In this document: one piece after another, positions 2,517 to 63,766 of the stretch
Layout: each line of letters begins with the position of its first letter
Numbering within the stretch: the stretch's first letter is position 1
NCBI RefSeq assembly: GCF_012516375.2
Contig: NZ_CP051204.2
Coordinates: 3,596,001 to 3,660,000, forward strand
Reading direction: 5' to 3'
DNA: 64,000 nucleotides
From: Chitinophaga oryzae
GTDB taxonomy: Bacteria; Bacteroidota; Bacteroidia; Chitinophagales; Chitinophagaceae
Notes under the pieces: generated by a model
What the model was told of the DNA's origin: nothing
Seen by the model: the letters and a program-made list of their open reading frames with translations, nothing else
The model's database searches: none
Program-made: the position numbers and the translations under genes

Positions 2517-2659
2517 TTGGGGATTTTTTGATTTTTGATTTTGGAATTTTGGGGACTAAAAAAAGCGGATGTATCAAAATACTTCTGATACATCCGCTTT
2601 TTATTTATCTCGCTATTTAATCCCAAAATTCCAAAATCGTAAATCAAAAAATCCCTAAA
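2517..2659. repeat. Stop-anchored nested inverted repeat, arm family A (TTTTTTGATTT type)
   Basis: Between two convergent genes. The left arm (2517-2554, motif GGATTTTTTGATTT) and right arm (2622-2659) are near-complementary over about 35 bases and enclose an independent hairpin. The right arm contains the stop codon of the minus-strand AsmA-like gene (2655-2657); the left arm starts 3 bases after the SusD stop. The same architecture recurs at nine further places in this window. Confidence 0.85.
2558..2606. terminator. Bidirectional intrinsic terminator
   Basis: A perfect 16-bp stem (2561-2576 with 2586-2601) with a 9-base loop, preceded by an A-run and followed by a T-run, so it can end transcription of both convergent genes. 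It forms the core of the surrounding nested repeat. Confidence 0.85.
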
Positions 2660-5600
2660 TATTTTTCTGTTTCCCTAACCCTACCTTGTACTTATCCGGC
2701 GTGCCCGAAATGCGTATATGCATGAAACGCCCTTTTTTGCCCTTATCTATGCTCTCAATGGCGTCTACCTGGTCAGCGTCCACTTCCTCCCGCTTGCGGC
2801 CAAACAGGGCCTGGAAACCAACCTGTGTGACCATCTTCATCGGTACCCGCAGGTAGTAGTTCATCTGTAAGTTCAGCGATTGGTTACCGGATACCTCTAT
2901 ATAGCCTAGTGATGAATTGATATTCATTTTGGGAATTTCAAGCGTTCCGTTTTTAAAGGTCAGTTTGTTGCGCAGGGTGTCAAAACGCACCATCCGCAGG
3001 TTTTTATCCTTGAAGTAAGATGACATGGCCTGCATGGGGCCAAAGTCCAGCAATACCCCGTTATGGATTTCCACGTCCATCTGCGCGGCCGTTTCGCTCA
3101 GCACGGGCGTCAGGTCGGGGTGCAGCCGTACGTGGCTTTTGATATGCCCGGTGAGTTTGCCTTTCAGGTTGTTGTTGAGTACCATGTCCTGGCCAAAGTT
3201 GTCAAACTTGAGCAGCATCTTGGTCATGTCTACGCTGTCGAGCCGGATGCCGCTGCGGAAGTAGAGCTTGGCCGGATCGGAGGCGTTGAGGATGCCACGC
3301 ATCCCGATATGGCCGCCTGCCATCCGGAGGGAGATAGTGTCTACTTTGATGCGCTGGTCTTTCTGCATGTGCACATTGGCCAGCACGTCTTTCATCCAGA
3401 GGCGGTGGTAGCGTATTTTGCCGATATTGACCTGGGCGTCAAAATTGCTGAAAGGAATTTTGAAGATATTGAAGCCGGCGGCGTGGAGGCTATCGTTTTC
3501 CCGCACCGTAGTAGGCTTGGCCGGCGCTTGCGCCTGGGCCGTCTGGTCTGTAAAGTCGTAGTTCATCAGCTCGTCGATGTTCAGGTATTGTGATTTGAAG
3601 CTGAAGAAATTATTGCGCTCTTTCCCCTGGCGGTCGGGACCAGCATAGAGCTTCAGGTTCATGTCAAAATCGGTGGTGCCGATTTTACCGGTAAGCGTGT
3701 CTACCACCAGGTAACGGTTGGTGCCGTACCGTATCCTGCCTTTGATATTTTCCAGCTGAACAGGATGTTGTTTAAGTGTGCCGGATATGTTGGCGATACG
3801 GGCGTCCACGCGTTTGAACACGGTATCATAACGCATGTTGAGTTTGGCCCGCAGCCAGAGTTTGCCGGCTTCTTCGTACCAGTAGCCCTGCGGGATGAAC
3901 TTGCGGCCGCGGGGGCCAATCAGATCGTTGACGGCGATACGGTCTGACTTCAGGTCGAAGGCCAGTTCAGTACGTCCTTTTTTGATTTTATCGAACCACA
4001 ATGGGTAGTTGTTCAATCTGCCTTTAAACGCAAAACCGCTGCTGTCGATATGACCGCTGAAGTTGCGTACCAGCAGGCTGGTATCGTTGATGGTGATGTC
4101 TGCGCCAAAATCGTGCAGCGCATGAGGGTACTGTTTGAAGGCCGCGCCGAGGTTGGTCAGCCGGAAAGTGCCCCTGGGTAAGGGGTTGGGGTGCAGCAGC
4201 TCCTGTACGGATGTTTCAAAAGCGAGGCCGATGTGAAAACCGGTCATCACTTCCTGCCGCAGTATTTTATGCGTGGTGTCTGCCAGCATCAGCTCCCCGG
4301 GATGAATGGCGTTGCCGGAAGCGCGGAACGTTACGGCGATGGGTTTCTGCTGTGCATGGAAAATAGCAGGCAGGTCGCTGATGGAACCGCCCGCCTTAAT
4401 ATCGGAGCTGCCTATACGAAAAGCGATGGAGTCCAGCAGCAGGCTGCCGTTGCGCACCTGCGCATGCAGGTTCATTTTACGTACCGGCAGGGGATAGTTG
4501 GGGATACGGAACTCGAGGTTGGTGACGGTCAGCTCACTTTGTATGCCCTCTTTCAGTTTGGCCAGCTGCTGCTCCGGCAGATGGATGTCTACCAGCTCTT
4601 TAAAATTCATTTTCAGGGCGATCTGTCCCTGCAACTGTTCCAGGTCTTTGATACCGAGGAACTCGCCCACGAACTTCAGGTCCAGCTCCGAGTATACCTG
4701 CATCACAATATGCGGATCGGTGAAGTCTTTCATGACGAAATTACCCCTGAATACGCCCTGTCCGGGTTTGGCGTTGATGCCCAGCAGGTGCAGCTCCGAT
4801 GTTTTCAGCGTATGGGCGTCCCCGTTGGTATAGTACCCTTTGAAGCCCAGGGAGTCTACCTTGCGGTCGATGTTTTTATTCTGGAACCACACGTTTTCGC
4901 AGCCAAAATTCACGCGGATGGCGGGCATTTCGTTTTTGGACAGCTTTCCTTTTACGGTGCCGTCGAAGAAGATGCGGCCATCGCGGCGGTATTTTTCCAT
5001 CATGGCGGCGATATCATTGGGTACCAGTGCAAAGAGCAGGTTGAGGTCCGGACGGTCGCCTTTTACCTGCAGGTCCAGCATCGTTTCCTTGCCCATGGCG
5101 GCGGTGCCCGCCAGTGAGAGGCTGGCGTTTTCCAGCCGGACAGTGCTGGGGGCGAGGGCCAGCTGTTGTTTACTGAGGTCGTAATTGCCTTTCAGGTCCA
5201 TCGACACTTTCCGGTTACGGAATAAAGTGCTGTCGGTGCGGCTGGTGAAGTCGAACAGCATTTTACTGTCCAGCTCCAGCGCTATGCGGTCGCCCTCCAT
5301 TTTAAAGGAGGTTTTTATTTTTTCAATGTGGGATACGATCTTCCAGCCGGAAGCAGCGTCGCGGTAGGTGACGTCGATATTTTTCAGGATCACTTTTTTC
5401 AGATCGAGGCTCAGCGCTTCGGCGCTGTCGGCGGCAGCGGCTGCGGTGCTGTCGCTTTTAAAAGCATGCGCCCTGATCAGGTCTACGTCGCCATTGGCGG
5501 CACGGGCGATGTCCACTTTGCCGTTGGCCACTACGATAATGCGCACCTGGTACCGTCCCCGCAGGATATCAGGGAGGCTGAAACCAGCGTACAGTTTCTC

Positions 5601-5873
5601 TACTTCGTACAACGGCTTCCCGTCCATGCGTTTGTTGGCAAAAAAACGGACATGGTGCAGGGCGATGGACACATAGGGGAAATTACTGAAAGGGGAGATG
5701 CTGCTTTTCTCCAGTACCAGTTCACCGGCAAATTGTTTATTCAGTTCATCTACTGCCAGTTGGGTTAAGCGCTGCTGCTGACTGTACAGGATACCGCCGG
5801 CTATGCCGATCAACAGCAATAAAGCAGCCAGCGATATCAGCGCCACACGGATGATTTTTTTTCCTGCTTTCAT
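2655..5873 (-). CDS. AsmA-like large membrane-anchored protein
   Basis: About 1,072 residues from the chosen ATG at 5873 (MKAGKKIIRVALIS); an in-frame ATG 33 bases upstream would add a non-signal-like prefix. A single N-terminal membrane segment (residues ~8-29) is followed by a short periplasmic linker and a very long beta-rich region with recurring DUF3971/AsmA-like stretches (e.g. LDLKKVILKNIDVTYRD near residue 165). Such proteins are now viewed as long hydrophobic-groove bridges that move phospholipids between inner and outer membranes in diderms; that role is inferred from the family. It stands alone, convergent with the SusCD operon and divergent from the glycosidase. Confidence 0.8.
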   Translation of the reverse strand: MKAGKKIIRVALISLAALLLLIGIAGGILYSQQQRLTQLAVDELNKQFAGELVLEKSSISPFSNFPYVSIALHHVRFFANKRMDGKPLYEVEKLYAGFSLPDILRGRYQVRIIVVANGKVDIARAANGDVDLIRAHAFKSDSTAAAAADSAEALSLDLKKVILKNIDVTYRDAASGWKIVSHIEKIKTSFKMEGDRIALELDSKMLFDFTSRTDSTLFRNRKVSMDLKGNYDLSKQQLALAPSTVRLENASLSLAGTAAMGKETMLDLQVKGDRPDLNLLFALVPNDIAAMMEKYRRDGRIFFDGTVKGKLSKNEMPAIRVNFGCENVWFQNKNIDRKVDSLGFKGYYTNGDAHTLKTSELHLLGINAKPGQGVFRGNFVMKDFTDPHIVMQVYSELDLKFVGEFLGIKDLEQLQGQIALKMNFKELVDIHLPEQQLAKLKEGIQSELTVTNLEFRIPNYPLPVRKMNLHAQVRNGSLLLDSIAFRIGSSDIKAGGSISDLPAIFHAQQKPIAVTFRASGNAIHPGELMLADTTHKILRQEVMTGFHIGLAFETSVQELLHPNPLPRGTFRLTNLGAAFKQYPHALHDFGADITINDTSLLVRNFSGHIDSSGFAFKGRLNNYPLWFDKIKKGRTELAFDLKSDRIAVNDLIGPRGRKFIPQGYWYEEAGKLWLRAKLNMRYDTVFKRVDARIANISGTLKQHPVQLENIKGRIRYGTNRYLVVDTLTGKIGTTDFDMNLKLYAGPDRQGKERNNFFSFKSQYLNIDELMNYDFTDQTAQAQAPAKPTTVRENDSLHAAGFNIFKIPFSNFDAQVNIGKIRYHRLWMKDVLANVHMQKDQRIKVDTISLRMAGGHIGMRGILNASDPAKLYFRSGIRLDSVDMTKMLLKFDNFGQDMVLNNNLKGKLTGHIKSHVRLHPDLTPVLSETAAQMDVEIHNGVLLDFGPMQAMSSYFKDKNLRMVRFDTLRNKLTFKNGTLEIPKMNINSSLGYIEVSGNQSLNLQMNYYLRVPMKMVTQVGFQALFGRKREEVDADQVDAIESIDKGKKGRFMHIRISGTPDKYKVGLGKQKNI

Positions 5874-5994
5874 GTTAAAGGCCGTTCTAATGTGTAAAAA
5901 TATCAAAAAATGGCGGGTGTGCGCACCGGTGGGTGTTGGGGATGTGTTAAAGTTTTACCGGATAAATAAAGCTGCTTTATTATTTTTATCGGCT

Positions 5995-6993
5995 ATGAAA
6001 GCTGATCGCATGATGAAAAAATGTTCTGCACTGCTGGCCGCTGCTGCCCTGGCGTTGACAGTACAAGCCCAGGAAGTGAAAAAGCCGGGCCACGCCGGCA
6101 ACCCGGTATTCCCGGGATGGTATGCCGACCCGGAAGGACTGGTGTTCGGAAAAAAATACTGGATCTTCCCCACCTTTTCGGCGCCTTACGAGCAACAGGT
6201 GTTCTTCGACGCATTTTCTTCCGATGACCTTGTTCACTGGAAAAAACATCCGCATGTCCTGGATTCCGCCGCAGTTAAATGGGCGAAACGCGCTATGTGG
6301 GCGCCTGCGGTGATCAAAAAAGGGAAACAGTACTTTTTCTTTTTCGGCGCCAACGATATCCAGCACAACGGCGAGCCCGGCGGGATAGGCGTAGCCGTGG
6401 CGGATAAACCGGAAGGGCCGTACCGCGACTATCTCGGTAAACCGCTGGTGGACAGTATCGTCCATGGCGCTCAACCGATCGACCAGTACGTGTTCCATGA
6501 CAAAGACGGCGCCTACTACCTGATCTACGGCGGCTGGGGACACTGTAATATCGCCCGGCTGAAAGATGATTTCACCGGCTTCATTCCTTTTGAGGACGGG
6601 ACCGTTTTCCGGGAGATCACCCCGGAGAAATACGTGGAAGGACCTACGATGTTTATCAGGAACGGAAAATATTACTTTATGTGGTCGGAAGGCGGCTGGG
6701 GCGGGCCGGACTATAGTGTGGCCTATGCTATCGCGGACAGTCCGGCAGGACCGTTTAAGCGTATCGGTAAAATCCTGCAGCAGGACCCGGCGATAGCCAC
6801 CGGCGCAGGACACCATTCTGTGATACACAATGCAAAGCACGATCAGTGGTTCATTGTTTATCACCGCCGTCCGCTGGGTAAAAAAGGAGCCAACGAAAGG
6901 GAAACCTGTATCGACCGGATGGAGTTTAATGAAGACGGTACTATCCGGCCGGTAGTGATGACCAAAGAAGGCGTGCGGCGGCTCCGGCTCTAG
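5995..6993 (+). CDS. Secreted glycoside hydrolase, family 43-like
   Basis: A five-bladed beta-propeller glycosidase of the GH43 type (arabinanases, xylosidases, galactosidases). Visible family motifs: NPVFPGWYADPEG after the signal peptide, whose Asp is the likely catalytic base; the blade motif QYVFHDKDGAYYLIYGG; and VEGPTMF, whose Glu is the likely general acid. The signal peptide MMKKCSALLAAAALALTVQA argues for starting at 5995 or at the ATG pair 6010/6013, not at upstream codons. About 330 aa, catalytic domain only. It ends convergent with the MFS gene with a 10-base gap. The exact sugar is not predictable. Confidence 0.85.
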   Translation: MKADRMMKKCSALLAAAALALTVQAQEVKKPGHAGNPVFPGWYADPEGLVFGKKYWIFPTFSAPYEQQVFFDAFSSDDLVHWKKHPHVLDSAAVKWAKRAMWAPAVIKKGKQYFFFFGANDIQHNGEPGGIGVAVADKPEGPYRDYLGKPLVDSIVHGAQPIDQYVFHDKDGAYYLIYGGWGHCNIARLKDDFTGFIPFEDGTVFREITPEKYVEGPTMFIRNGKYYFMWSEGGWGGPDYSVAYAIADSPAGPFKRIGKILQQDPAIATGAGHHSVIHNAKHDQWFIVYHRRPLGKKGANERETCIDRMEFNEDGTIRPVVMTKEGVRRLRL

Positions 6994-7003
6994 GCCGCTG
7001 CTG

Positions 7004-8272
7004 TTATGCGCGGGCGCTGTTACGGTCGTTGGTCATCATTTTTCCGGCCGGCGGAAATATCGTCACGGCAGGCTGTGTTTTTCTGCGATGCTGTACAAAC
7101 ACGATGGTGGCCACGATGCCGGTCAGCCCTGCAATACAAACAGTTGCCCGCGGTCCTATCCACTGGGCCAGCATCCCTGTCAGCAGGCTGCCGATGGGGA
7201 TCATGCCCTGGTAGGCCATGATGTAATAACTGATAGCCCTTGCACGCATGGCTGGAATAGCGTGCGTCTGGATGTAGGTATTAATGGCAGATGTCTGTGC
7301 CATCATACCTACGCCGGAAAGCATCATGAACACCAGGGCCAGTGGCAGCCAGCCGGCATAGGCGAGGAGCACGAGGCTCAGACCAAATATCAGGCTGGCA
7401 GTGATGAGTATTTTGACGAGGTCTTTTCCGGCCTTTAACTGCGCCATATAAATAGCCGCGGCGATAGAACCCACACCGGCGGCGCTTTCAAACCAGCTGA
7501 ATGTTCTGGCGCTGCCATTGAAAATATCTTTTGCGAAAACGGGCATCAATGTATTGAAAGGCATCACCAGCAGGCTGCTGGCGGTGAGCATCAGCAGCAG
7601 GGAGGAAAGGTCCCTGTCATGTGAAATATACTGCCATCCTTCCCGCAGCTCTGCCCAGATGCTGCGTTCTGACTTCACGATCACCGGCAGGTCCATCTTC
7701 ATCATAAACAGGGAAACCAGTACCGGCACATAACTCAGGAAATTGCCGGCAAAACAGATGTCTTCCCCAAAGGTGCTCAGGACAATGCCGGCCAGCGCCG
7801 GTCCCGCAATACGGGCAAAATTGGCGACGGTGGAGTTGAGCGCTATGGCGTTGGGAAGATCTTCCTTCTGCTCCACCATTTCCATCATGAGCGACTGCCG
7901 GCAGGTAACGTCAAACGCATTGATAACGCCCTGTACGAGCGACAGGAAAATAATACCGGGGATGTTATAATAACGCAGCAGGATCATGAGCGCCAGCGCG
8001 CCTGCCTGCACCATCGAGATCACCTGCGTGATGATCATCAGGCGGTAGCGGTTATGACGGTCTATGTAACTGCCGGCGTAGGGCGACAGGAAAAGGGAGG
8101 GGATGAGGCTTACAAAGCTGACTACGCCCAGCAGCAGGGCGGAATTGGTTAACCGGTACACCAGCCAGCAAACAGCTGTTTTCTGCATCCATGTACCTAT
8201 CAGGGAAATAGATTGTCCGTAAAAGAAGAGCCGGAAGTTCCGGGATTTTAAAGAGCGAAATACATCCATCAA
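7004..8272 (-). CDS. MFS exporter, EntS/DHA3-like
   Basis: A 422-residue major facilitator with about 12 membrane segments and the N-terminal signature FRLFFYGQSISLIGTWMQ common to the EntS/enterobactin-exporter-like DHA3 group. The loop YAGSYIDRHNRYRLMI between TM2 and TM3 is the MFS motif A region (D-R-x-x-R). Members export siderophores, drugs or metabolites. It is divergent from a LysR regulator (127-bp gap), a classical regulator/target arrangement, so substrate-induced control by that regulator is the simplest inference. Substrate unknown. Confidence 0.88.
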   Translation of the reverse strand: MMDVFRSLKSRNFRLFFYGQSISLIGTWMQKTAVCWLVYRLTNSALLLGVVSFVSLIPSLFLSPYAGSYIDRHNRYRLMIITQVISMVQAGALALMILLRYYNIPGIIFLSLVQGVINAFDVTCRQSLMMEMVEQKEDLPNAIALNSTVANFARIAGPALAGIVLSTFGEDICFAGNFLSYVPVLVSLFMMKMDLPVIVKSERSIWAELREGWQYISHDRDLSSLLLMLTASSLLVMPFNTLMPVFAKDIFNGSARTFSWFESAAGVGSIAAAIYMAQLKAGKDLVKILITASLIFGLSLVLLAYAGWLPLALVFMMLSGVGMMAQTSAINTYIQTHAIPAMRARAISYYIMAYQGMIPIGSLLTGMLAQWIGPRATVCIAGLTGIVATIVFVQHRRKTQPAVTIFPPAGKMMTNDRNSARA

Positions 8273-8344
8273 AAATTTGTTTATAAAAGCGGGAATACTG
8301 ACATTCCTTTTAATAATCGATGGTGCAAATTTCGGTCACTTTGA

Positions 8345-17316: not shown

Positions 17317-17465
17317 TTTAGGGATTTTTTGATTTACGATTTTTTGATTTACGATTTTTTGATTTTTCGAATTAAAAAAGACCTAAGCGATTTTTTAATC
17401 GCTTAGGTCTTTGCTTTTATCAAAAGAAATCAAAAAATCGTAAATCAAAAAATCGTAAATCCTTA
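17317..17465. repeat. Stop-anchored nested inverted repeat, arm family A
   Basis: Convergent gap. Arms carry two to three tandem copies of a 15-base motif (GATTTTTTGATTTAC) on each side. The right arm starts directly at the symporter stop codon (17463-17465); the left starts 3 bases after the Kir stop. Confidence 0.85.
17374..17416. terminator. Bidirectional intrinsic terminator
   Basis: 14-bp stem (17377-17390 with 17399-17412) with an 8-base loop, flanked by A and T runs; centre of the nested repeat. Confidence 0.85.
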
Positions 17466-20043: not shown

Positions 20044-20322
20044 TTTTGGGATTTAGGGATTTTTTGATTTACGGATTTTGGGATTTTGCGGAATGATTGC
20101 TCCGTAAATCCTGAAATCCGTAAATCAGGGACTGTTTGATTCCCTGAAATCTCAAAATCTCAAAATCCCTAAATCAAAAAATCCGTAAATCAGGGACTGT
20201 TTGATTCCCTGAAATCTCAAAATCTCAAAATCCGTAAATCAAAAAATCCGTAAATCAGGGACTGTTTGATTCCCTGAAATCTCAAAATCTCAAAATCCCT
20301 AAATCAAAAAATCCGTAAATCA
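20044..20322. repeat. Stop-anchored inverted-repeat element with internal 65-bp tandem repeats
   Basis: Arm family A again, between convergent genes. A hairpin motif CAGGGACTG..CAGT-free core, CAGGGACTGTTTGATTCCC, occurs at 20126, 20191 and 20256, exactly 65 bases apart, so the right arm has been amplified about threefold. The DinB stop codon (20320-20322) lies within the arm. Confidence 0.85.
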
Positions 20323-20778
20323 AAGATATTTGCGTAGCAGTACAATCTGCCCCAGATGATAGGCGTCGTGCTCTGCGAGGCCCTGCAGGTAATAAATCGC
20401 CTTTTTATCTGTTCCCGGGAAGGTGTCGAACAGTTCCGCTTCCGGGAACTTCCGGATGGTAGCTGCTATCTGGTCGAAAGAATGTTCCAGCCGGTGGATG
20501 GTAGCCTGCCAGTTTTCTTCTCCGTGGTTTTCCGGCATATAAAAATCCGGGAGGTCTCCGTCTTTTTCGGGCGGCTCGTTATGCATGTACCGTTCTACCC
20601 GCTGGTGCCAGAAGATAACATGGTTCACGATCTGCCAGATATTATTGGAGCCGTTCAGGCTTTTGGCAGCCTGACGCGCATCGATGCGGGAAAGATGTTC
20701 CCTGAAAGTTACGTCCAGCCAGGGCTTCCCATTATATAGCGCTTCAATGGAAGAAGCGAGGTGTTCTGTAAGCTGCAT
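20320..20778 (-). CDS. DinB/YfiT-like four-helix-bundle metalloprotein
   Basis: 152 residues. Three His at the expected metal positions of the DinB family are visible: WQIVNHVIFWHQRV in the second helix and AEHDAYHLGQIVLLRKYL at the C-terminus. The family includes bacillithiol or mycothiol transferases and many uncharacterised proteins induced by damage; the substrate here is unknown. Divergent from the carboxyltransferase gene. Confidence 0.85.
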   Translation of the reverse strand: MQLTEHLASSIEALYNGKPWLDVTFREHLSRIDARQAAKSLNGSNNIWQIVNHVIFWHQRVERYMHNEPPEKDGDLPDFYMPENHGEENWQATIHRLEHSFDQIAATIRKFPEAELFDTFPGTDKKAIYYLQGLAEHDAYHLGQIVLLRKYL

Positions 20779-22468: not shown

Positions 22469-22570
22469 AAAGCAGATTTTTTGATTTTCGATTTTTTGAT
22501 TTTGATATTTTGTCAGGTAGTACGACTTCATCTTCCCAAAATTCCAAAATCAAAAAATCGAAAATCCGAA
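22469..22570. repeat. Stop-anchored inverted repeat, arm family A
   Basis: Starts 6 bases past the carboxyltransferase stop; left arm with GATTTTTTGATTTTCG, right arm ending before the RNase HI promoter. Here the neighbours are co-directional. Confidence 0.7.
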
Positions 22571-22578
22571 AATGACAA

Positions 22579-22586
22579 TATATTTG
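22579..22586 (+). promoter_or_regulatory. -7 element of rnhA, predicting a leaderless mRNA
   Basis: TATATTTG fits TAnnTTTG exactly. Its final G is 7 bases before the ATG at 22593, the same distance as between the RNase P RNA -7 box and its inferred 5' end. Confidence 0.6.
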
Positions 22587-32842: not shown

Positions 32843-32946
32843 GGTGAAAATTTTGGGATTTACGATTTTTTGATTTTGTGATTTAACCTGACCAGGTGGT
32901 CCTCAAAATTCCAAAATCAAAAAATCGCAAATCCCAAAATGAATAT
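32843..32946. repeat. Stop-anchored inverted repeat, arm family A
   Basis: Arms 32847-32884 and about 32900-32941 with centre hairpin ACCTG-AC-CAGGT. The right arm ends 6 bases from the accD stop codon (32947-32949); the left edge abuts the smpB start. Confidence 0.8.
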
Positions 32947-36048: not shown

Positions 36049-36167
36049 ATCAATTACGGATTACGAATTACGAATTACGAATGGAGGGCTTTCTTTTGGA
36101 AAGGTTATTAAGTAACCGCTCTATAAGGAAGCCCTCCATTCGTAATTCGTAATTTGTAATTCGTAAT
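36049..36167. repeat. Stop-anchored nested inverted repeat, arm family C (AATTACG)
   Basis: Arms of tandem 7-mers (AATTACG) on each side, closing on an inner stem GGAGGGCTT/AAGCCCTCC. The right arm continues into the Rieske stop codon (36168-36170); the left starts 4 bases after the hydrolase stop. Convergent gap. Confidence 0.85.
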
Positions 36168-36611
36168 TCACGTAACGGTGAGGGTATTCCCGCTTACGGT
36201 GATAGTATACGCTGTCAGCGGCGCGGTAGCGGGACCGGTGTTAACAGCGCCGCTGGTCGAATACCGGCTGCCATGGCCGCAGGGCGCGTTACACTCAATC
36301 AGCTTCGTCGTATTGTTAAAAGTGGCGACAGTACACCCCTGGTGGGTGCAGGTGCTGGACAGCGCGGCAAAATCCGCTGCCGTTTTGCCTGTGCCGGTAC
36401 GGATAAGGATAACCCCGTTGGCGATTTTAAAGTCGCCGGGATTGGGCAAATCACTGCCCAGGTTGACCGACAGCTTCGCATTCGGGCCGCCCGGCGTCGG
36501 GTCCGGTGAGGAGTCATAACCGCCCCCGCCCTTGCTGCAGGCCGCTAGTCCGCCTACGCAGGCCAGCGCGAGCGTCATCCCGATGTTGGATACAAAATCC
36601 CTTCTTTCCAT
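36168..36611 (-). CDS. Rieske-type [2Fe-2S] lipoprotein with atypical second ligand box
   Basis: 147 residues. The N-terminus has a twin-arginine (MERRDFVSNIG) and a lipobox (GLAAC), suggesting a Tat-exported lipoprotein, as folded Fe-S proteins need. Box I CTHQGC is canonical. Box II reads CNAPCGHGSRY instead of the usual C-P-C-H-G-S, so the Cys-x2-His spacing of the second ligand pair is not kept. The family carries electrons; whether this one still binds a normal cluster is uncertain. No cytochrome partner is adjacent. Confidence 0.8.
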   Translation of the reverse strand: MERRDFVSNIGMTLALACVGGLAACSKGGGGYDSSPDPTPGGPNAKLSVNLGSDLPNPGDFKIANGVILIRTGTGKTAADFAALSSTCTHQGCTVATFNNTTKLIECNAPCGHGSRYSTSGAVNTGPATAPLTAYTITVSGNTLTVT

Positions 36612-49186: not shown

Positions 49187-49553
49187 AACTACAAACCGTG
49201 CTATCGTTCCTCAGCTTGTCTGCAGGGAAGGAAAGTCCGGACAGCGCAGAGCAACACACCACCTAACGGGTGGGCTCCGGCTTGCCGGAGACAGAGAGTG
49301 CCACAGAAAATAACCACCCTGCTTCGGCGGGGTAAGGGTGAAAATGTGGGGTAAGAGCCCACGGTACAGGCAGGTAACTGTTTGTGCGGGTAAACCTTGT
49401 GTGCTGAAATGCCATGTATACGGACGCTTGAGGGCTGCTCGTCCGATTGTCCGAGGGTAGGCAGATACAGGGGGCGCGCGAGCGTCACCGCAGATAAATG
49501 ATAGCAACCCTGGCTTGCCAGGGGACAGAATCCGGCTTACAGGTTTGTAGTTT
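49187..49553 (+). ncRNA. rnpB: RNase P RNA, bacterial type A
   Basis: Catalytic RNA that matures tRNA 5' ends. The 5' end (AACTACAAACC, 49187) pairs with the 3' end (GGTTTGTAGTT) to form P1. Core landmarks in order: GGAAGGAAAGTCCGGAC (49225 region), GTAAGAGCCCAC (49350 region) and ACAGAATCCGGCTTACAGG near the 3' end. A long T-rich run (49551 on) acts as the terminator. About 365 nt, as expected. Confidence 0.95.
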
Positions 49554-49631
49554 TTTTCTTTTTCTTTTTCCCCTGCTTTGATATTACGATAAAACCTCCT
49601 ATCTTCTCACCCTTATTTAATCCTGTTTTTT

Positions 49632-50045: not shown

Positions 50046-50227
50046 TCTCGCAAAGTTGATAAGTGAGCAAAGTGCGCAAAGAATCACTTAAGCGAGCGAA
50101 GAAAATAAAGAACCATATTGAATGAGCTAAGAAAAACAAAGGGGCGAAGATTAACATTAATCTTCGCCCCTTTGTTTTTCTTATATGTTTTCTTTGCGCA
50201 CTTTGCTCACTTATCAACTTTGCGAGA
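50046..50227. repeat. Stop-anchored nested inverted repeat, arm family B (GCAAAG)
   Basis: Perfect 38-base arms (50046-50083 with 50190-50227), starting with zero bases after the DUF4870 stop (TGA, 50043-50045) and ending with zero bases before the subtilase stop codon (50228-50230). A second perfect 27-bp stem (50128-50154 with 50157-50183, 2-base loop) lies inside. Confidence 0.92.
50128..50183. terminator. Bidirectional intrinsic terminator
   Basis: 27-bp perfect inverted repeat with A-rich start and T-rich end, core of the family-B nested element. Confidence 0.8.
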
Positions 50228-53125: not shown

Positions 53126-53126
53126 C

Positions 53127-53216
53127 CCAGGGCTTACGCCTTCAGGGCATACACTCTCAGGGCATACACCCTCAGGGCTTACATCCCCAGGGCTTACGCC
53201 CTGGGTTACGATGTTG
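53127..53216. repeat. GC-rich palindromic repeats, group 4
   Basis: Five degenerate half-units of the type CAGGGCTTACGCC, ending in a complete palindrome CCCAGGGC-TTAC-GCCCTGGG and the inverted ACAAC flank. Confidence 0.7.
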
Positions 53217-53590
53217 TTCAGGTTTTTTCTCATCCAACCTGTTATTTATGCATGGCAGGTCTGCGTACATCCATAACAAATCCATTCTTTAGAAGAAATT
53301 GAACAACATTGTTGCCCCGGGTGTGAGCCCGGGGGTAGGTTATTCAGGTTTTTTCTCATCCAACCTGTTATTTATGCATGGCAGGTCTGCGTACATCCAT
53401 AACAAATCCATTCTTTAGAAGAAATTGAACAACATTGTTGCCCCGGGTGTGAGCCCGGGGGTAGGTTATTCAGGTTTTTTCTCATCCAACCTGTTATTTA
53501 TGCATGGCAGGTCTGCGTACATCCATAACAAATCCATTCTTTAAAAGAAATTGAACAACATTGTAGCCCCGGGCGTGAGCCCGGGGACAC
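53217..53590. repeat. 126-bp tandem direct repeat, three copies
   Basis: Copies start at 53217, 53343 and 53469, exactly 126 bases apart and nearly identical. Each ends in the GC-rich palindrome with its ACAAC flank (for example GAACAACATTGT followed by CCCCGGG..CCCGGGG). The third copy differs by a few bases. Confidence 0.92.
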
Positions 53591-57563: not shown

Positions 57564-57730
57564 TTCTCGCAAAGCACGCAAAGGAGCAAAGAACGCAAAG
57601 ATTTTTTTAAGTTTAAATAAGAAAGCAAAGGAGCGAAGATCAATTCGATTTGATCTCCGCTCCTTTGCTTTCTCTGCTCGCTTATATTATATTCTTTGCG
57701 TTCTTTGCTCCTTTGCGTGCTTTGCGAGAA
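57564..57730. repeat. Stop-anchored nested inverted repeat, arm family B
   Basis: Perfect 38-base arms (57564-57601 with 57693-57730), sequence family TCTCGCAAAG. Inner near-perfect 23-bp stem (57621-57643 with 57651-57673). The element ends 15 bases from the panB stop codon; upstream neighbour is a start, not a stop, so it belongs to panB. Confidence 0.9.
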
Positions 57731-58561: not shown

Positions 58562-58638
58562 AGCAGTGTTGTTTTATATCAATAATTCCTCAAAGGTTAT
58601 GATATAAAAAGAAAAAAGGAAAATTATTTTATGTGTGG

Positions 58639-59538
58639 TCACTGAAAACCGTTCGCCGGGATGGCAATTTCCCGGTAGAGCGCCTGTATCAGCCCGTCGG
58701 CCAGCCCGATCTTAGGGACATAGATCTCTTCGGCGCCGGCCCAGCGCATCACGTTGATGTATATCTGAAGCGCCGGTACGATCACGTCAGCACGGTCTTC
58801 CCGCAGGTTGTACAGGTGGATGCGCTCTTCCACGGAGAAAGCGCTGAATTCCTTGTAATAGTCTTTCAGGGTGTCGAGTGAGAGCGGTTTGCCTTCCTTG
58901 CGTTTGGAGAGCGAAAATATTTTATTGATGTTGCCGCCGGACCCGATAGCTGTTACCGGCCCGATGGTCCTGAGCTGTTGTTTGAGAAAATCCTTCAGTT
59001 GTTGCCAGGCGCTGTCCGGTACCTGCTGGTGCAGCAGGCGAATGGTACCGATATTGAATGATTCCTTGAAAATGAGGCGTGTGCCGCTGAAGAGCGTGAG
59101 CTCGGTACTGCCGCCGCCCACGTCGATGTAGAGATATGATTTTGTTTTGTCGAGGTGTTCGGCGATATGGTTTTCGTAAATATAAGAAGCCTCTTCCTGC
59201 CCGGAGATAATATGTATGTCAATACCGGTCTGCGTTCTGACCTCCTGCAGGATCTCAGCGCCGTTGGCGGCGTCGCGCATGGCAGAGGTAGCGCATGCTT
59301 TCAGGTATTTCACTTCATAAACATCCAGCAGCAGTTTGTAGGCCTTGATAGTGTCTATCAGGTGAGACGTCCTTTTTTCTGAGATAGAGCCATGGTCAAA
59401 GACATCGAAACCGAGCCGCAGCGGTACTCTTACCAGGTTCACTTTGGTAAAGTCCATCGTTCCCGCACTGTTGGGGGATGCTTCGGAGATCAGCAACCGG
59501 GCGGCATTGGAACCAATATCAATCGCAGCTAACTTCAT
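58639..59538 (-). CDS. Ppx/GppA-family phosphatase (exopolyphosphatase-like)
   Basis: 299 residues, the short single-domain-pair form common in the phylum. Start motif AAIDIGSNAARLLI (ASKHA phosphate 1), DVGGGSTELTLFSG, and GPVTAIGSGGNINKIF. Degrades polyphosphate or pppGpp. Lies directly downstream of ppk1 on the same strand (147-base gap with a repeat element), so synthesis and breakdown of polyphosphate are side by side. Confidence 0.9.
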   Translation of the reverse strand: MKLAAIDIGSNAARLLISEASPNSAGTMDFTKVNLVRVPLRLGFDVFDHGSISEKRTSHLIDTIKAYKLLLDVYEVKYLKACATSAMRDAANGAEILQEVRTQTGIDIHIISGQEEASYIYENHIAEHLDKTKSYLYIDVGGGSTELTLFSGTRLIFKESFNIGTIRLLHQQVPDSAWQQLKDFLKQQLRTIGPVTAIGSGGNINKIFSLSKRKEGKPLSLDTLKDYYKEFSAFSVEERIHLYNLREDRADVIVPALQIYINVMRWAGAEEIYVPKIGLADGLIQALYREIAIPANGFQ

Positions 59539-59579
59539 TAATTATTCCTCTGTTTTGAGGTACAAAAATAACACTTTTC

Positions 59580-59687
59580 ATTTAGGGATTTCCTGATTTT
59601 CGATTTACAAATTTGAGATTCGACGAAATAGCTGTTTAGCCAGGTCATAAATCCCTAAATCGAAAATCAGAAAATTCCTAAATTTTA
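59580..59687. repeat. Stop-anchored inverted repeat, arm family A
   Basis: Left arm 59580-59614, right arm about 59650-59687 which contains the ppk1 stop codon (59685-59687, TAA). Loop of about 35 bases, no strong inner hairpin. Confidence 0.75.
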
Positions 59688-61874
59688 TTTGTACTGCTTT
59701 TCGTGCAGGTATTTATAGATCTCTATCTGGGTGCGGATTTTTTTATCGCCTTCTTTTTTATACTGGTTGGTCTGGTCGTTGTCCAGTATACGGGCTTTTA
59801 CGTTGCCGCTGAGCTGGATGTCCATGATATCCGCCAGCTCTTTACGTATATGCGGGTCCGTTATAGGCACGGCTGCTTCCACGCGGTGGTCGAGGTTACG
59901 CACCATCCAGTCACAGGAGGCGATGTATACTTTTTCGCTGCCGCCGTGATGGAAGATAAACACGCGGGCGTGTTCAAGGTATTCGTCTACAATGCTGACG
60001 GCGGTAATATCTTTTTTCCACTTTTTATTTTCCGTGTAGGCGCAGCAGATGCCGCGTATCACCATCTTGATGTCTACGCCGGCTTTGGCCGCTTCGTAGA
60101 GTTTACCGATGAGGATGGAATCGGAGAGGGAGTTCATCTTCAGCACGATGCCGGCTTTCTTTTTGTTTTTGGCGTTCTTGATTTCACGGTCGATCAGGCG
60201 CATGTAGGTGTCGCGCATATTCAGCGGACTTACCGGCAGTGTTTTGCAGCCTTCGAGTATTTTAATATCGTGACGGGGGCTCTCCAGGTAGGAGAATACC
60301 CGGTTGATGTCTGCGATCACGGAGCGGTTGGCCGTGAGCAGGCAATGGTCGCCGTATACCTGTGCGGTCCTTTCGTTGAGGTTACCGGTACTGACAAAGC
60401 CGCACTGTACGGTTTTGGTGCCGATGCGTTTTTTGATCACGCACAGTTTGGCGTGTACTTTCATATCCGGAATACCGAGGAACACTTTTACTCCTTCATC
60501 TTCGAGGCGTGCTTTCCAGTCGAGGTTGGCCGCTTCATCGAAGCGGGCGCGCAGTTCCAGTACCACGGTCACATGTTTGCCGTTGCGGGCGGCGTTTACC
60601 AGGGCATTCACAATTTTGGAATTACGGGCAAGCCTGTACGCAGTGATCTTGATGGAAGACACATTCGGATCGATGGCTGCTTCCCGCAGCAGGTCGATAA
60701 TGGTATCGAAAGAGTGATAGGGGAAGTGCAGCATCACATCCTGCCGTTGAATCACGTGCATCACGCTGGGGGCATCGGCGAACAGTGGATGGATAAAGGT
60801 TTTGCGATGGGTATGCGGCGGGAAGATAGATTCGGGGAAATCCATAAAGTCTTTGAAATTATGGATGCGGGCGCCGGGAATGAGGTTGTCTTTACCGGAG
60901 AGGCCCATCCTGCGGATCAGGTATTCGAGCAGCAGGGGGTCGATGTCCTTGTCGTACACAAAGCGTACGGGTTTGCCTTTGCGGCGGTCTTTCAGGCCTT
61001 TCTCGATCTGGTGGATCAGGCTGTCCGATATGTCGTTGTCGATGTCCAGTTCCGCATCGCGGGTCACCTTGATGATATGCGAAGAGAACTTATCGTAACC
61101 GAAGTAGGAGAAGATGTGCGGGAGACAGAAGCGGATCAGGTCTTCCAGCAGGATGATGTCATGCTCGCCTGGTTTGGAGGGGAGGATGATAAAGCGGGGC
61201 AGCACGTTGGAAGGTATTTCTATCAGCGCGAATTTCTGTCTGACGGAGTTGTCCTGCCTGGCCAGTACCACGCCCAGGTAGATGGACTTGTCCCGCAGGA
61301 TAGGAAACTGCTGGATGCTTTCAATCATCAGCGGGATGATATTGGTGCGCACCTGTTCATTGAAATAGTTGAGCACAAATTTCTGTTGTTCCCGGTTCAG
61401 ATGTTTTTCCGTCCGCAGGAAAATATGCATTGTTTCCAGTTCATTCGCGATGTCTTTCCAGATGCGGTCGAACTCCCGTTGCTGGTCTATCACGATGGCC
61501 TGTATATCGTCCAGTATTTTACCCGGGTTTTCTTCCAGGTGCATTTTATGGACTTTGTTGATAGACATCATGCGTTTGAGCGTGGCTACCCTGACGCGGA
61601 AAAATTCGTCGAGGTTATTGGAGAAGATGCCGAGGAAGCGGATACGTTCTCTCAGGGGCACGCTGGTATCTGCTGCTTCCTGCAATACTCTTGCGTTGAA
61701 GGCGAGCCAGCTGACATCCCGGGGGATCAGTTTTTTGGCGGGGAGCGCCGGTGCTTTGGGGGCCGGGGTCTTTTTGGCGGGTGCTTTTTTAGCCGTATTT
61801 TTTTTGGCGGTATTTTTCTTTGATACTATAGTTGGTGTCATAAATTCCAGATTCTCCGTATGTGGCATCGTCAT
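59685..61874 (-). CDS. ppk1: Polyphosphate kinase 1 with a Lys/Ala/Pro-rich N-terminal extension
   Basis: 729 residues; ATG at 61841 is an alternative giving ~718. Makes inorganic polyphosphate from ATP. Residues ~19-47 are a low-complexity basic extension (KKNTAKKNTAKKAPAKKTP). Conserved body starts at RDVSWLAFNARVL. The autophosphorylated His is in DMKVHAKLCVIKKRIG, the second phospholipase-D-like domain has ELRARFDEAANLDW and GFVSTGNLNERTA. ppx follows. Confidence 0.95.
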   Translation of the reverse strand: MTMPHTENLEFMTPTIVSKKNTAKKNTAKKAPAKKTPAPKAPALPAKKLIPRDVSWLAFNARVLQEAADTSVPLRERIRFLGIFSNNLDEFFRVRVATLKRMMSINKVHKMHLEENPGKILDDIQAIVIDQQREFDRIWKDIANELETMHIFLRTEKHLNREQQKFVLNYFNEQVRTNIIPLMIESIQQFPILRDKSIYLGVVLARQDNSVRQKFALIEIPSNVLPRFIILPSKPGEHDIILLEDLIRFCLPHIFSYFGYDKFSSHIIKVTRDAELDIDNDISDSLIHQIEKGLKDRRKGKPVRFVYDKDIDPLLLEYLIRRMGLSGKDNLIPGARIHNFKDFMDFPESIFPPHTHRKTFIHPLFADAPSVMHVIQRQDVMLHFPYHSFDTIIDLLREAAIDPNVSSIKITAYRLARNSKIVNALVNAARNGKHVTVVLELRARFDEAANLDWKARLEDEGVKVFLGIPDMKVHAKLCVIKKRIGTKTVQCGFVSTGNLNERTAQVYGDHCLLTANRSVIADINRVFSYLESPRHDIKILEGCKTLPVSPLNMRDTYMRLIDREIKNAKNKKKAGIVLKMNSLSDSILIGKLYEAAKAGVDIKMVIRGICCAYTENKKWKKDITAVSIVDEYLEHARVFIFHHGGSEKVYIASCDWMVRNLDHRVEAAVPITDPHIRKELADIMDIQLSGNVKARILDNDQTNQYKKEGDKKIRTQIEIYKYLHEKQYK

Positions 61875-62031
61875 ACAAACAAGTTTACATTCAAAAAATT
61901 CACGTTGTTTAATCCACGATAATACAGCTTTCGCGGATCTGATGCCATTAAATTAAAGTTAAGAAAAACCGGGCAATCCGGCGCGGCGGGGCAAAAGTTA
62001 ATCATTCGTCTGGCCGGCATTCAACGGGGGC

Positions 62032-62052
62032 GCCCCGGGGGCTAAAGCCCTG
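62032..62052. repeat. GC-rich palindromic intergenic repeat, copy 5
   Basis: GCGCCCCGGGGGCTAAAGCC-type palindrome in the gap between ppk1 and the flippase-like gene. Confidence 0.55.
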
Positions 62053-62121
62053 TGAACCGTAGGAAGGGGATAACGCCTATGCTTATACGCGCAGGTGTTA
62101 AAGTATTGCTAAAAGCGTGGA

Positions 62122-63144
62122 TCAGGACCGGGCCGGCGCGGCGGATTGTTTTTTGTTGAGGATGGGCAGGGCCACGAGGCTGAGGAATCCCACCAGGACC
62201 ACGAGCAGTGTTTGTACTACCCAGATGATCCAGCCGAAGGCGTAGCCGATCACATAGGCGATGCCATAGAGTTCGAGGGCTTTCTGTACCAGCGCCTGGT
62301 AGGCGCCGATGCCGCCGGGGGTGACGATCATGCCGATGCTGCCGATCATGAGTACGGCGAGGGCGGCGCTGATGCCCAGGTGGGACGTTTCCTGCAGGCA
62401 GTAGAAGCCGATGTACACCTGGGAGAGGTAGCAGCCCCATATCAGAATGCTCTGGAGGATAAACGACCATTTATTCTCCATTTTGCCGATTGATAAGATG
62501 CCTTCCATTACGCCTTTGGCCAGCGCTTTGATGGTGATGGCCGCTTTGGAGCGGGCAAACCGGCGCAGGAGCCAGAGGAGGGCGAGGATGGCGGCAATCA
62601 GCGCTGCCACCAGCAGCAGGAGCTGTGTGCCGTTGGCATTGGCGATTTTACGGGCGATGGGCAGGTAGATGTCATGATGGACGTAGGCGCCCAGTACATC
62701 TATCTGTGTAAGGATGGTGACGGCGATGAGCAGCAGGAGGCACAGCATGTCGACGGCTCTTTCCGCGATCATGGTGCCGACGAGTTTGTCGGCCGGTATT
62801 TTTTCGTATTGTGCCAGGATGCCGCAGCGGGTTACTTCTCCCAGCCGGGGAACGGCCAGGTTGGCGAGGTATCCGACCATAACGGCAAAGAAGGTGTTGA
62901 GGGTGGAGGGCTGGTGCCCCAGCGGCTTCATGAGCAGCTTCCAGCGGGTGGCGCGCAGCCAGTGGCTGACGAGGCCCATGATCACGGCAGGGATGGCCAG
63001 CCAGTAGTTGGCCTTCCGCAGGGCGGCGTTGATCTGGTCCCATTGTTCCGGTGTGAGGTCTTTGGTGACCAGCCATATCAGGAGTACCCCGATGCCGAAA
63101 AAGCATATAAACTTAATGACGTTCTTAAGCGTTTTGGGCATCAT
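62122..63144 (-). CDS. Lysylphosphatidylglycerol synthase transmembrane-region (UPF0104) protein
   Basis: 340 residues, about eight membrane segments, LPG-synthase-type flippase domain without the catalytic aminoacyl-transferase half. Start MMPKTLKNVIKFICFFGIGVLLIWLV; PRLGEVTRCGILAQYEK and TPGGIGAYQALVQKALELYGI are family motifs. Probably a lipid flippase; not a full MprF. Placed right after panD (44 bases), a common order in Bacteroidota. Confidence 0.88.
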   Translation of the reverse strand: MMPKTLKNVIKFICFFGIGVLLIWLVTKDLTPEQWDQINAALRKANYWLAIPAVIMGLVSHWLRATRWKLLMKPLGHQPSTLNTFFAVMVGYLANLAVPRLGEVTRCGILAQYEKIPADKLVGTMIAERAVDMLCLLLLIAVTILTQIDVLGAYVHHDIYLPIARKIANANGTQLLLLVAALIAAILALLWLLRRFARSKAAITIKALAKGVMEGILSIGKMENKWSFILQSILIWGCYLSQVYIGFYCLQETSHLGISAALAVLMIGSIGMIVTPGGIGAYQALVQKALELYGIAYVIGYAFGWIIWVVQTLLVVLVGFLSLVALPILNKKQSAAPARS

Positions 63145-63188
63145 CCAAAGTGGTTTTAGGGTGTTAGCGATATGTTAAGGCGAAGGGT

Positions 63189-63533
63189 TTACAATTTGTT
63201 CCCTTCTTTGGGGAAGATGGCAATAGGCGTATATTTCTTCGCTTCTTCAAAGTCCATGGTGGCATAGGAAATAATAATCACAACATCACCGGGAGCTACG
63301 AGACGGGCGGCGGGGCCATTCATGCAGATTACGCCGGAGCCTCTTTTGCCTTTGATCACATACGTTTCCAGTCTTTCACCGTTGTTAACGTTCAGGACCT
63401 GTACTTTTTCGTATTCGATCAGGCCGGCGGCATCCATCAGGTCTTCATCTATCGTAATACTTCCGACATACTGCAGGTTCGCTTCTGTGACTACCGCGCG
63501 GTGGATCTTACACTTTAATATTTCTATTTGCAT
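63189..63533 (-). CDS. panD: Aspartate 1-decarboxylase
   Basis: 114 residues, pyruvoyl enzyme making beta-alanine for pantothenate. Starts [38 protein letters not shown]; the self-cleavage Gly24-Ser25 (YVGS) that makes the pyruvoyl group is present. [27 protein letters not shown] is the second signature. Confidence 0.97.
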
Positions 63534-63570
63534 GATTATTCTGAACTATAATTGCTAAATCAGCAGTCCG

Positions 63571-63601
63571 CAAAGCTAGGGAAAAAAAGTATTCCGGCAA
63601 A
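63571..63601 (-). promoter_or_regulatory. panD promoter
   Basis: Minus strand: TTTG (63598-63601), 19-base spacer, TAGCTTTG (63571-63578); exact fit. Predicted start about 31 bases before the ATG. The -33 box sits at the edge of a family-B repeat arm. Confidence 0.65.
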
Positions 63602-63766
63602 GAGGTCACGCAAAGGCGCTAAGCAGCAAAGACGCTAAGAAATTAACAAGAAAACAAAGAAAGCAAAGAAGGGGGAGAGCAAATATTCCTCTCTCCCTTC
63701 TTTGCTTTCCTATTTAAAAACTTTAAAAATCTTTGCAGGCTTTGCTGCTTTGCGCCTCTGCGTGAA
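63596..63766. repeat. Stop-anchored nested inverted repeat, arm family B
   Basis: Imperfect GCAAAG-type arms (about 63596-63645 and 63725-63766) around a strong inner stem (GAAAGCAAAGAAGG with CCTTCTTTGCTTTC, 63658-63709). The right arm ends directly before the panC stop codon. Confidence 0.8.
63658..63709 (-). terminator. Intrinsic terminator after panC
   Basis: Long stem with GGGAGAG/CTCTCCC core and A/T-rich flanks inside the family-B element. Confidence 0.65.

Follow-up and report, generated by a model that had tools for sequence, protein, structure and literature searches.

Tandem arrays of short degenerate words have been described in Xanthomonas, as (GGGANTN)n, and in Nostoc, as GGGGA(C/T)T, in both cases with a 7 nt unit (PMC4692102). 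In the available part of that report, these heptamer repeats are frequently paired in inverted, convergent orientation (one strain has 70 such cases, comprising 186 repeats), adjoin or overlap stop codons, are rare between divergent genes and use one G-rich, quadruplex-capable vocabulary; for 90% of them, the neighbouring genes are the same in two species (PMC4692102). The REPs, among them GTAG- and CGTC-tagged forms, are described together with RAYT transposases and with GT pairing in their stems (PMC3733652, from the accessible text). Intergenic direct repeats of the word TAACTGA occur in Beggiatoaceae, Cyanobacteria and Bacteroidetes, with no known mechanism according to the excerpted source (PMC4679880). 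Finally, quasipalindrome correction by template switching evens out the arms of inverted repeats until they are identical and can invert the spacer, as the available portions of PMC8604942 describe it (on the same subject, PMC7202029).

How do the ten inverted repeats found at stop codons in the window (the whole 64-kb stretch of Chitinophaga oryzae DNA analysed here) compare? They are palindromic DNA that exchanges fast and sits at terminators, with affinities to REPs and to the heptamer repeats of Xanthomonas and Nostoc. Like the latter, they consist of tandem short words arranged as inverted pairs at stops, although three of the vocabularies found here have 8 nt words; unlike the heptamers as far as the source portrays them, they use several vocabularies in one genome, exchange them at orthologous gaps and replace terminators, and their constant parts (GATTT, ATTT, GCAAAG and AATTACG) contain, by reading, no counterpart of the Xanthomonas/Nostoc G-runs. 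With REPs, BIMEs and REPINs they have in common that they are small, high-copy intergenic palindromes near coding regions that can provide a stop codon (PMC3733652, accessible text), whereas the window elements carry no GTAG/CGTC tag, their arms are tandem words, their stems show no GT excess and no linked RAYT was found. The TAACTGA repeats are likewise word arrays common to distant phyla; however, those heptamers are direct repeats and, in the main genome treated in the excerpt, mostly lie beside start codons. Quasipalindrome correction is described as a local mutation process; the portions at hand connect it neither with the replacement of terminators nor with word arrays common to several loci.

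MITEs are short, dispersed elements with inverted terminal repeats and no genes. The elements studied here are likewise short, dispersed and gene-free with inverted ends, but differ in their variable arms, in the lack of a target-duplication excess (GCAAAG family) and in favouring replacement over insertion in the clearest cases. The tests made here for REP hallmarks (tag, RAYT and G-T enrichment) and for MITE target duplications came out negative.

The palindromes of the window

Palindromes were defined by arms of at least 24 nt, 85% complementarity and a span of at most about 450 nt. Eleven passed in the window, namely the ten repeats of the original prediction, each at the position first noted, and a CCCAGGGC repeat at 53186-53586. 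Dinucleotide shuffles of the whole window (n=10) gave 0 palindromes each; per-gap shuffles (n=10) gave 1 each, always the last repeat, which lies past the last called gene and hence stayed unshuffled. An Rfam scan of the window returned RNase P only. The ten elements are as follows (coordinates in the window; no strand is assigned to any of them).

E1, 2514..2661: GATTT-word palindrome between convergent stops; DNA fold z -13.8
E2, 17323..17461: GATTTACG-word palindrome with a bidirectional terminator hairpin inside, convergent gap; z -14.5
E3, 20044..20324: GATTT-word palindrome, convergent gap
E4, 22470..22580: GATTT and ATTTNNNN words mixed, codirectional gap, stop side; z -6.6
E5, 32850..32941: GATTT-word palindrome, codirectional gap
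E6, 36049..36170: AATTACG-word palindrome with a GAGGGC...GCCCTC core, convergent gap; z -14.0
E7, 50046..50227: GCAAAG-word palindrome occupying the entire gap from stop to stop
E8, 57564..57730: GCAAAG-word palindrome, codirectional gap, stop side
E9, 59580..59683: GATTT-word palindrome, codirectional gap, its end one base short of the ppk stop
E10, 63603..63769: GCAAAG-word palindrome extending into the minus-strand stop codon at 63767-63769

Each element is built of a core, often a terminator hairpin, between two mirror-image word arrays. The arms (26-56 nt, varying by finder) are arrays of 7-8 nt words, with autocorrelation at lag 7 and 8, and match at 35 of 35 positions in E2 and 38 of 38 in E7. 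The three vocabularies named at the outset are better counted as four, GATTTNNN, ATTTNNNN, GCAAAGNN and AATTACG, three of them with an 8 nt word and two, GATTTNNN and ATTTNNNN, on a common ATTT octamer frame and mixed in the element at 22470. The separate strong hairpin described as usual is present in many elements, including E1 (bidirectional terminator, at about 2558-2602), E7 (50128-50183) and E10 (63659-63709), but is weak at 22470 and, by reading only, at 32850. Intrinsic-terminator features, i.e. a GC-rich stem and a T-run, are recognizable by reading in several cores (E1, E2) and not in the arms.

According to our gene calls, five of the ten elements, rather than the six claimed, lie in tail-to-tail gaps (2514, 17323, 20044, 36049 and 50046), and the other five in codirectional ones. 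The distances to stop codons mostly agree with those first given: 0 and 0 nt at 50046-50227, 0 nt to the left stop of E1, and an overlapped stop at 2655 (the right stop of E1), at 20320 and at 63767-63769, where a minus-strand open frame of 77 codons ends; the arm placed inside a stop near 59685, however, ends at 59683. E5 lies 6 nt from the stop codon of a gene for an acetyl-CoA carboxylase subunit, and the outer arm ends of E6 are 117 nt apart. In E3 the right arm is repeated in tandem, with three units of about 65 nt each, and this tandem expansion, at 20044-20324, is the one observation in line with the suggestion of a repeat growing at 3' ends.

Anchoring at stop codons

Among the stretches compared, 72 of 75 palindromes in codirectional gaps lie closer to the stop than to the start; a distance of at most 15 nt separates 56 from the stop and 6 from the start, and 123 divergent gaps hold only 3 palindromes. 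The elements are thus tied to stops and not to starts, as originally proposed, and the comparison then set as decisive, arms at stops versus arms at starts, gave enrichment at stops in these stretches. Stop-side ends within 5 nt numbered 21 in the own genome (16.6 expected) and 25 in near relatives (20.2 expected), both inside the range of 2000 random placements, and 22 in far relatives (8.4 expected, placement maximum 15). Since random placement within an element's own gap is blunt where gaps are short, it is the codirectional comparison that carries the claim of anchoring. In the 80 listed records with GCAAAG elements, with genes taken as longest ORFs, 3 of 8 codirectional elements from Chitinophaga and 13 of 24 from other taxa are closer to the stop. 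The stop codon beside GCAAAG elements is TAG in 8 of 13 cases (few, and including orthologous copies) against a background of 303 in 1637, and stop-codon usage beside elements varies with the vocabulary, again on small counts that include orthologous copies.

Exchange of elements and terminators between relatives

Between related species, the sequence that follows the stop is exchanged, either a terminator for an element or words for other words. At six of the nine window gaps compared (those of E1 to E9), a relative carries other words. The E1 gap has ATTTNNNN arms in G043, G044 and G038, and in G011, where the genes are separated by 2.8 kb more, a plain terminator; the E2 gap has ATTTNNNN arms in G038 and a different repeat in G029; and the E3 gap has an AATTACG-word element in G044. 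ATTTNNNN words occupy the E4 gap in all five near relatives, the E5 gap in G043 and G038, and, on the same frame, the E9 gap in G029, G043 and G038. At E6, G044 has a CCCAGGGC repeat instead and G043 mixed remains, while G043 and G044 carry a plain terminator at E7 and another terminator at E8, the core of which is inverted relative to the closest relative, G029. Orthologous gaps hence differ by gain, loss and change of vocabulary in the stretches compared, and not merely by slow divergence, the outcome named beforehand as fatal to the original prediction.

Some elements occupy the position of the relatives' plain terminator, which is then absent rather than displaced. When both orthologous gaps are empty, the shorter aligns nearly completely (medians 0.97-1.00); at gaps 9, 45 and 139, by contrast, the filled gap contains nothing alignable to the empty one, terminator included, while gap 211 retains its upstream part and has lost the terminator. 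The outgroup G011 has a homologous terminator at gap 211 and a plain terminator of other sequence at gap 139. Genomes with about 94% identity in their coding DNA already differ by such losses of old terminators. Elements can also arrive without loss, for at gap 233 the terminator persists next to an element and at gap 99 most of the flank is retained. Over all automatic gain/loss comparisons, median coverage of the empty gap was 0.61 (n=7), 0.60 (n=24) and 0.73 (n=22), values that stay this high partly because some cases are degenerate orthologous elements.

At two gaps, perhaps three, the same terminator seems to have been replaced by one family separately in two lineages. The own cores at gaps 45 and 139 resemble other own elements more than the G038 element of the same gap, which speaks for separate arrival in the own genome and in G038. 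At gap 9, the likeness of the own to the G038 core (0.63) is about as high as copies from different gaps can reach (own 211 versus G038 gap 9, 0.66), so that descent and separate arrival look alike there; for gaps 9 and 45, arms of the own genome and G038 are 91% identical. Each of the 7 AATTACG sites of G038 has its counterpart in the own genome, for which shared descent could be an alternative cause.

Arm matching and rival explanations

What keeps the arms alike? Between the own and G029 arms, 30 of 101 changed pairs are pair-preserving double changes (1.9 expected), and outside the genus 159 of 204 variable positions are mirrored (shuffled maximum 141). Such covariation, together with the position behind stops, strong folds, terminator-like cores and interchange with terminators, would suit RNA 3'-end structures, terminators or stabilisers, whose arms are matched by selection on RNA pairing, as the original prediction had allowed. 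The mismatches point elsewhere. On the sense strand, arm mismatches are GT 87 : AC 94 (43 : 46 in word elements alone), as against GT 46 : AC 6 in terminator stems from similar gaps of the same genomes, and because the arms lack this G-U bias, their reading as selected RNA structure is unsupported. The arms also lie nearer the stop (median 10 nt) than terminator stems do (median 30 nt). The RNA-structure reading of the arms, already weakened by these data, is quite improbable; judged from the sequences, DNA-level copying between arms fits covariation without a G-U bias better. One clear core inversion, that of E8, was seen among 22 orientable pairs.

It is possible, though doubtful, that the elements are REP- or MITE-like and moved in trans by a transposase that prefers terminators, a redundant old terminator beside the palindrome being soon deleted. 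Dispersed families with family-specific cores, gaps filled in one relative and empty in another, the burst of one family in a single lineage (282 exact AATTACG matches in the own genome versus 48 in the closest relative), the fact that five of ten own AATTACG elements span exactly 117 nt, and the retained terminator at gap 233 would all be expected. Against it, old terminators are gone even at about 94% coding identity, and words differ between copies yet match within a copy, a match that a fixed transposase end does not need. Nor do 80 GCAAAG-word loci show an excess of target duplications (k = 3 to 9) over shuffled flanks, or the mismatches the G-T enrichment of REP stems. A GTAG/CGTC tag at the palindrome foot begins none of the ten window elements; three GCAAAG elements outside the window (L208, L167 and L217) do start with GTAG. 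No RAYT flanked by the same repeat was found, and a RAYT was rejected as the mover, the sole Y1_Tnp match in the genome lying in a 3.3 kb locus with a CCCAGGGC repeat and none of the six word patterns searched. A search that retained just the best among overlapping repeats showed no inverted arms 450-5000 nt apart, as in an autonomous relative, in about 460 kb of the own genome and in 80 kb of each of two relatives. A retron or other reverse transcriptase was likewise rejected as the driver: the only gene that matches RVT_1 encodes a type XIII retron RT and, like other genes, has an AATTACG element behind it. The Y1_Tnp, RVT_1 and distant-arm searches yielded no enzyme or intermediate for movement. 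The original idea of a mobile element aimed at terminators fits terminator replacement and the AATTACG burst.

Least probable is that homologous recombination in the genes on either side brought in entire gap alleles from other species. The states at gaps 9, 45 and 139 are discordant with the tree and the own and G038 cores at gap 9 are fairly alike, as import would predict, but the flanking coding sequence is closest to G029, with no clear G038-shared run up to the stop, and the elements that own and G038 carry in gaps 45 and 139 are less alike than copies inside the own genome. At four gaps of discordant pattern, 84 sites are shared between own and G029 versus 48 with G038, compared with 3451 versus 1234 elsewhere, so there may be a weak introgression signal at these four. 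The right flank of gap 45 is shifted by indels, and differences there are inflated. Introgression was not visible in the flanking sequence at the gaps examined.

A tentative model and its implications

Our preferred explanation, which we hold tentatively and at somewhat less than even confidence, is that several families of fast-exchanging palindromic DNA occupy the terminator position, their arms being matched by template switching and their copies made by stalled synthesis. One arm would be kept identical to the other by being copied from it during DNA synthesis. Synthesis might also stall or break at the terminator hairpin and be finished on another palindrome as template, aided by microhomology around the stop codon, producing a new copy. 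Selection on the coding sequence would confine the replacement to what follows the stop, and the exchange would be tolerated if the core takes over termination. Besides stop anchoring, terminator exchange and arm covariation without wobble bias, the inverted E8 core, the lack of a target-duplication excess and the AATTACG burst count in favour of this model; the cases of arrival without loss and the rarity of clear core inversions count against it.

Template switching leaves both the word structure and the recurrence of words in distant phyla unexplained. In records whose titles name about a dozen phyla, GCAAAG-word arms enclose cores that are for the most part unrelated. The inverted AATTACG pattern was present in 1 of 296 genomes sampled from the phylum, the window's own, and AATTACG-type arms recur at a Nostoc locus (L176). 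Among the matches listed in the open-access literature, there was no paper on these palindromes and no published origin of such word repeats. A broader proposal, that a DNA-copying process without a transposase lets palindromes of short words capture terminators, overwrites these from stop to stop and keeps the arms identical, with the same words in many phyla, is in our estimate unlikely as a whole; under it, bacterial terminators would be in part a mobile, exchangeable portion of the genome.

What, then, is the significance of these palindromes? The comparison of GT and AC mismatches is a cheap means, in any genome, of separating RNA-selected hairpins from DNA-made palindromes. Terminators are usually taken as fixed, locally evolving signals; the gene ends described here look less fixed, some terminators having been exchanged wholesale between species with about 88-94% common coding DNA. 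If the explanation holds, the elements would offer a natural system for measuring how palindromes form, how templates are switched and how terminators turn over; it may also account for the word-like repeats that occur in records whose titles name many phyla.

Structure of the palindromes and their position at stop codons

All ten inverted repeats that the original prediction had described in the window, which is part of one 8.36 Mb contig, were found where it had placed them (E1 to E10, each a core framed by mirror-image arrays of 7-8 nt words). When arms had to be 24 nt or longer and at least 85% complementary, 11 inverted repeats were recovered, namely the ten and one CCCAGGGC array, against none in each of ten dinucleotide shuffles of the window; a further 400 kb of the genome holding the window (the home genome) contained 26. 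The four elements folded as single strands (E1, E2, E4 and E6) were 6.6-14.5 SD above shuffles in stability. That the arms are words in tandem is directly visible, and their autocorrelation peaks at lags 7 (z 12.2) and 8 (z 8.0) in 37 home-genome arms; 42 arms from five near relatives peak at lag 8 (z 18.1), and 39 arms from twenty farther relatives at lag 7 (z 9.3).

Word vocabularies of the arms in the home genome
A (GATTT words): GATTTNNN
D: ATTTNNNN
B (GCAAAG words): GCAAAGNN
C (AATTACG words): AATTACG

Farther relatives use other vocabularies, e.g. AAAAAGCTAAAAGC, ATGATTATCCTGATGAG and ATGTGCGGATGTGCAA. As judged by reading, the core is GAGGGC...GCCCTC in many C elements, a GCAAAGGAGCGAAGATC hairpin in the B elements of Chitinophaga, and often a bidirectional terminator in A elements. 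Because A and D have an ATTT octamer frame in common and are mixed in E4, a change from A to D may be word replacement within one superfamily. The right arm of E3 (window 20044-20324) occurs three times in tandem at a spacing of 65 nt; word matches at intervals of about 72 nt suggest that the outgroup, G011, has a similar array (C26:470893-471216), and in the relative G043 about 16 ATTACGA units form a one-sided array (C3:541432-541542), with no facing arm among the matches listed.

Position is equally plain from a pooled set comprising 63,374 bases from the start of the window, 400 kb of home-genome sequence, 80 kb per genome for five near relatives and 20 kb per genome for 20 far ones, with gene calls made within this analysis. 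Convergent gaps (n = 102) held 43 palindromes, codirectional gaps (n = 466) 75 and divergent gaps (n = 123) 3; one more lay outside gaps. The stop side was the closer one in 72 of the 75 codirectional cases (56 lay within 15 nt of the stop versus 6 within 15 nt of the start), as it was in 147 of 161 in a bigger, overlapping set with looser arms. In the alignments read for E1-E9, the words start inside the stop codon or directly behind it, and the C-terminal codons of the adjoining genes are mostly those of the relatives.

Turnover and replacement of terminators

When E1-E9 were compared with five near relatives, six of the nine gaps (E1, E2, E3, E4, E5 and E9) had another vocabulary in at least one relative; the change was A-to-D in five, and the E3 gap holds AATTACG in G044. 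The E7 and E8 gaps contain plain terminators in G043 and G044. Non-divergent orthologous gaps of the window plus 400 kb were also classified automatically, and part of the gain/loss calls proved, when the sequences were read, to be degenerate orthologous elements.

Automatic classification of orthologous gaps
Home genome and G029 (its closest relative): 24 same vocabulary, 3 switched, 10 gain/loss, 142 without element
Home genome and G043: 9 same vocabulary, 5 switched, 24 gain/loss, 136 without element
G029 and G043: 8 same vocabulary, 3 switched, 23 gain/loss, 131 without element

Between two element-free gaps, nearly the whole of the shorter one can be aligned to the longer (medians 1.00, 0.97 and 0.98; n = 118, 110 and 108 comparisons); for all automatic gain/loss comparisons, degenerate cases included, the medians are 0.61 (n = 7), 0.60 (n = 24) and 0.73 (n = 22). 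Exchange is seen directly in the clearest gaps. At gaps 9, 45 and 139 the home genome has an AATTACG element, and nothing of the relatives' gap is alignable with the home gap (G029 and G043 for the first two; G043 for gap 139, where G029 fell below the length cut); at gap 211 the terminator is lost while 0.61 of the gap is retained. By reading, G029, G043 and G044 have mutually homologous terminators at these four gaps. In G011, where gaps 45, 139 and 211 were sought, a homologous terminator is present at 211 and a plain hairpin with another sequence at 139, whereas gap 45 could not be recovered; the terminator is therefore most simply the ancestral state. The main rival to exchange is that a transposase acting in trans inserted the elements and the then redundant terminator was lost afterwards. 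Two gaps run counter to replacement: gap 233 has a B element next to a retained terminator, and at gap 99 the flank is mostly retained.

Did the same replacement happen more than once? The relative G038 also has AATTACG elements at gaps 9, 45 and 139, although the tree groups the home genome with G029, versus G038, G043 and G044 (median coding identity 0.937 for home-G029, 0.885 for home-G038 and 0.923 for G038-G043), and no clear import was found in the coding DNA flanking these gaps. Core comparison strengthened the parallel case at two gaps and weakened it at one. Home elements resemble other home elements (0.56 at gap 45, 0.58 at gap 139) more than their G038 counterparts (0.34 and 0.33), a pattern that favours separate arrival or else within-genome homogenisation. 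At gap 9 the home-G038 score is 0.63, yet the home element of gap 211 reaches 0.66 with that of G038 at gap 9, so that separate arrival and descent are both compatible with it. All seven G038 AATTACG sites are also sites in the home genome (0.47 expected, 135 complete gaps); preferred terminators would explain this, and an older shared history is possible.

Spread across genomes

Exact AATTACG array matches number 282 in the home genome, 48 in G029, 44 in G038, 170 in G044 and 17 in G043. Of 60 genomes belonging to the genus, 25 have the exact array and 9 the GATTTACG word pair; among 296 genomes sampled from the phylum, only the window's own has the AATTACG palindrome pattern. The GCAAAG palindrome pattern matched at least 119 stretches of GTDB species genomes, of which 80 were used, 29 titled Chitinophaga. 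Among the matches listed, the titles of the other 51 were assigned to Pseudomonadota, Myxococcota, Desulfobacterota, Acidobacteriota, Verrucomicrobiota, Chlamydiota, Planctomycetota, Cyanobacteria, Chloroflexota, BRC1, other Bacteroidota and one Methanosarcinales archaeon; since many records are MAGs, single titles may be misbinned. Among these listed matches, the 49 non-Chitinophaga cores of 40 nt or more are alike in 7 of 1176 pairs, arm positions that the pattern does not fix are mirrored arm-to-arm at 159 of 204 (shuffled maximum 141), exceeding the likeness between loci, and target duplications show no excess. Palindromes of CACAGAG/CACGGAG/CTCTGTG words (L195:4036-4213, L153:3115-3176 and L185:7511-7669; titled Chromatiales, Gammaproteobacteria and Chlamydiae) are possibly further vocabularies with the same layout.

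Coevolution of the arms and comparison with known systems

The arms coevolve at the DNA level. In 27 inverted repeats of all kinds orthologous between the home genome and G029 (arms of at least 20 nt, 802 pairs), 101 pairs had changed. In 30 of them both sides had changed and still paired (1.9 expected), in 5 both had changed and no longer paired, and in 66 the change was on one side. Five further genome pairs gave 12-26 kept double changes versus 1.5-4.3 expected. Selection of the arms for RNA pairing should leave more G-U than A-C mismatches on the sense strand; no such excess is seen in the arms of 161 codirectional palindromes (87 GT, 94 AC, 123 other), either in the 77 with word vocabulary (43 GT, 46 AC) or in the remaining 84 (44 GT, 48 AC). 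As a positive control, 120 stems of terminators from codirectional gaps gave 46 GT, 6 AC and 30 other, orthologous copies being counted repeatedly in both sets. That the arms are selected for their RNA structure is thus disfavoured. According to PMC8604942, template switching between inverted-repeat arms leads to arm homogenisation and spacer inversion; one of 22 orientable pairs has an inverted core, that of E8 between the home genome and G029 (3 undecided, 93 unlike, 78 too different in length).

Among the open-access papers listed by literature searches, none was on these elements. The closest anatomy is that of the heptameric repeats described from Xanthomonas and Nostoc (PMC4692102), degenerate 7 nt words in inverted pairs adjoining stops, which differ in their single G-rich vocabulary and conserved positions. 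REPs can supply stop codons and have GT pairs within their stems (PMC3733652); the arms studied here lack such a GT excess. A separate repeat family and an RNA gene also lie in the window:

53185-53586: CCCAGGGC...GCCCTGGG hairpins, tandem array of about 126 nt units
49188-49555: RNase P RNA, bacterial class A

A copy of the CCCAGGGC...GCCCTGGG family (L062:1976-2179) sits about 130 nt behind the home genome's only Y1-type transposase match, and the two may for this reason be a true REP/RAYT pair. At another locus, a type XIII retron reverse transcriptase (L063:814-2541) has an AATTACG element immediately 3' of its stop.

For the stop-adjacent palindromes themselves, we favour a model in which terminator hairpins are sites of non-allelic copying that brings about the exchange, with microhomology at the stop; template switching would keep the arms identical, and the core would carry out termination.
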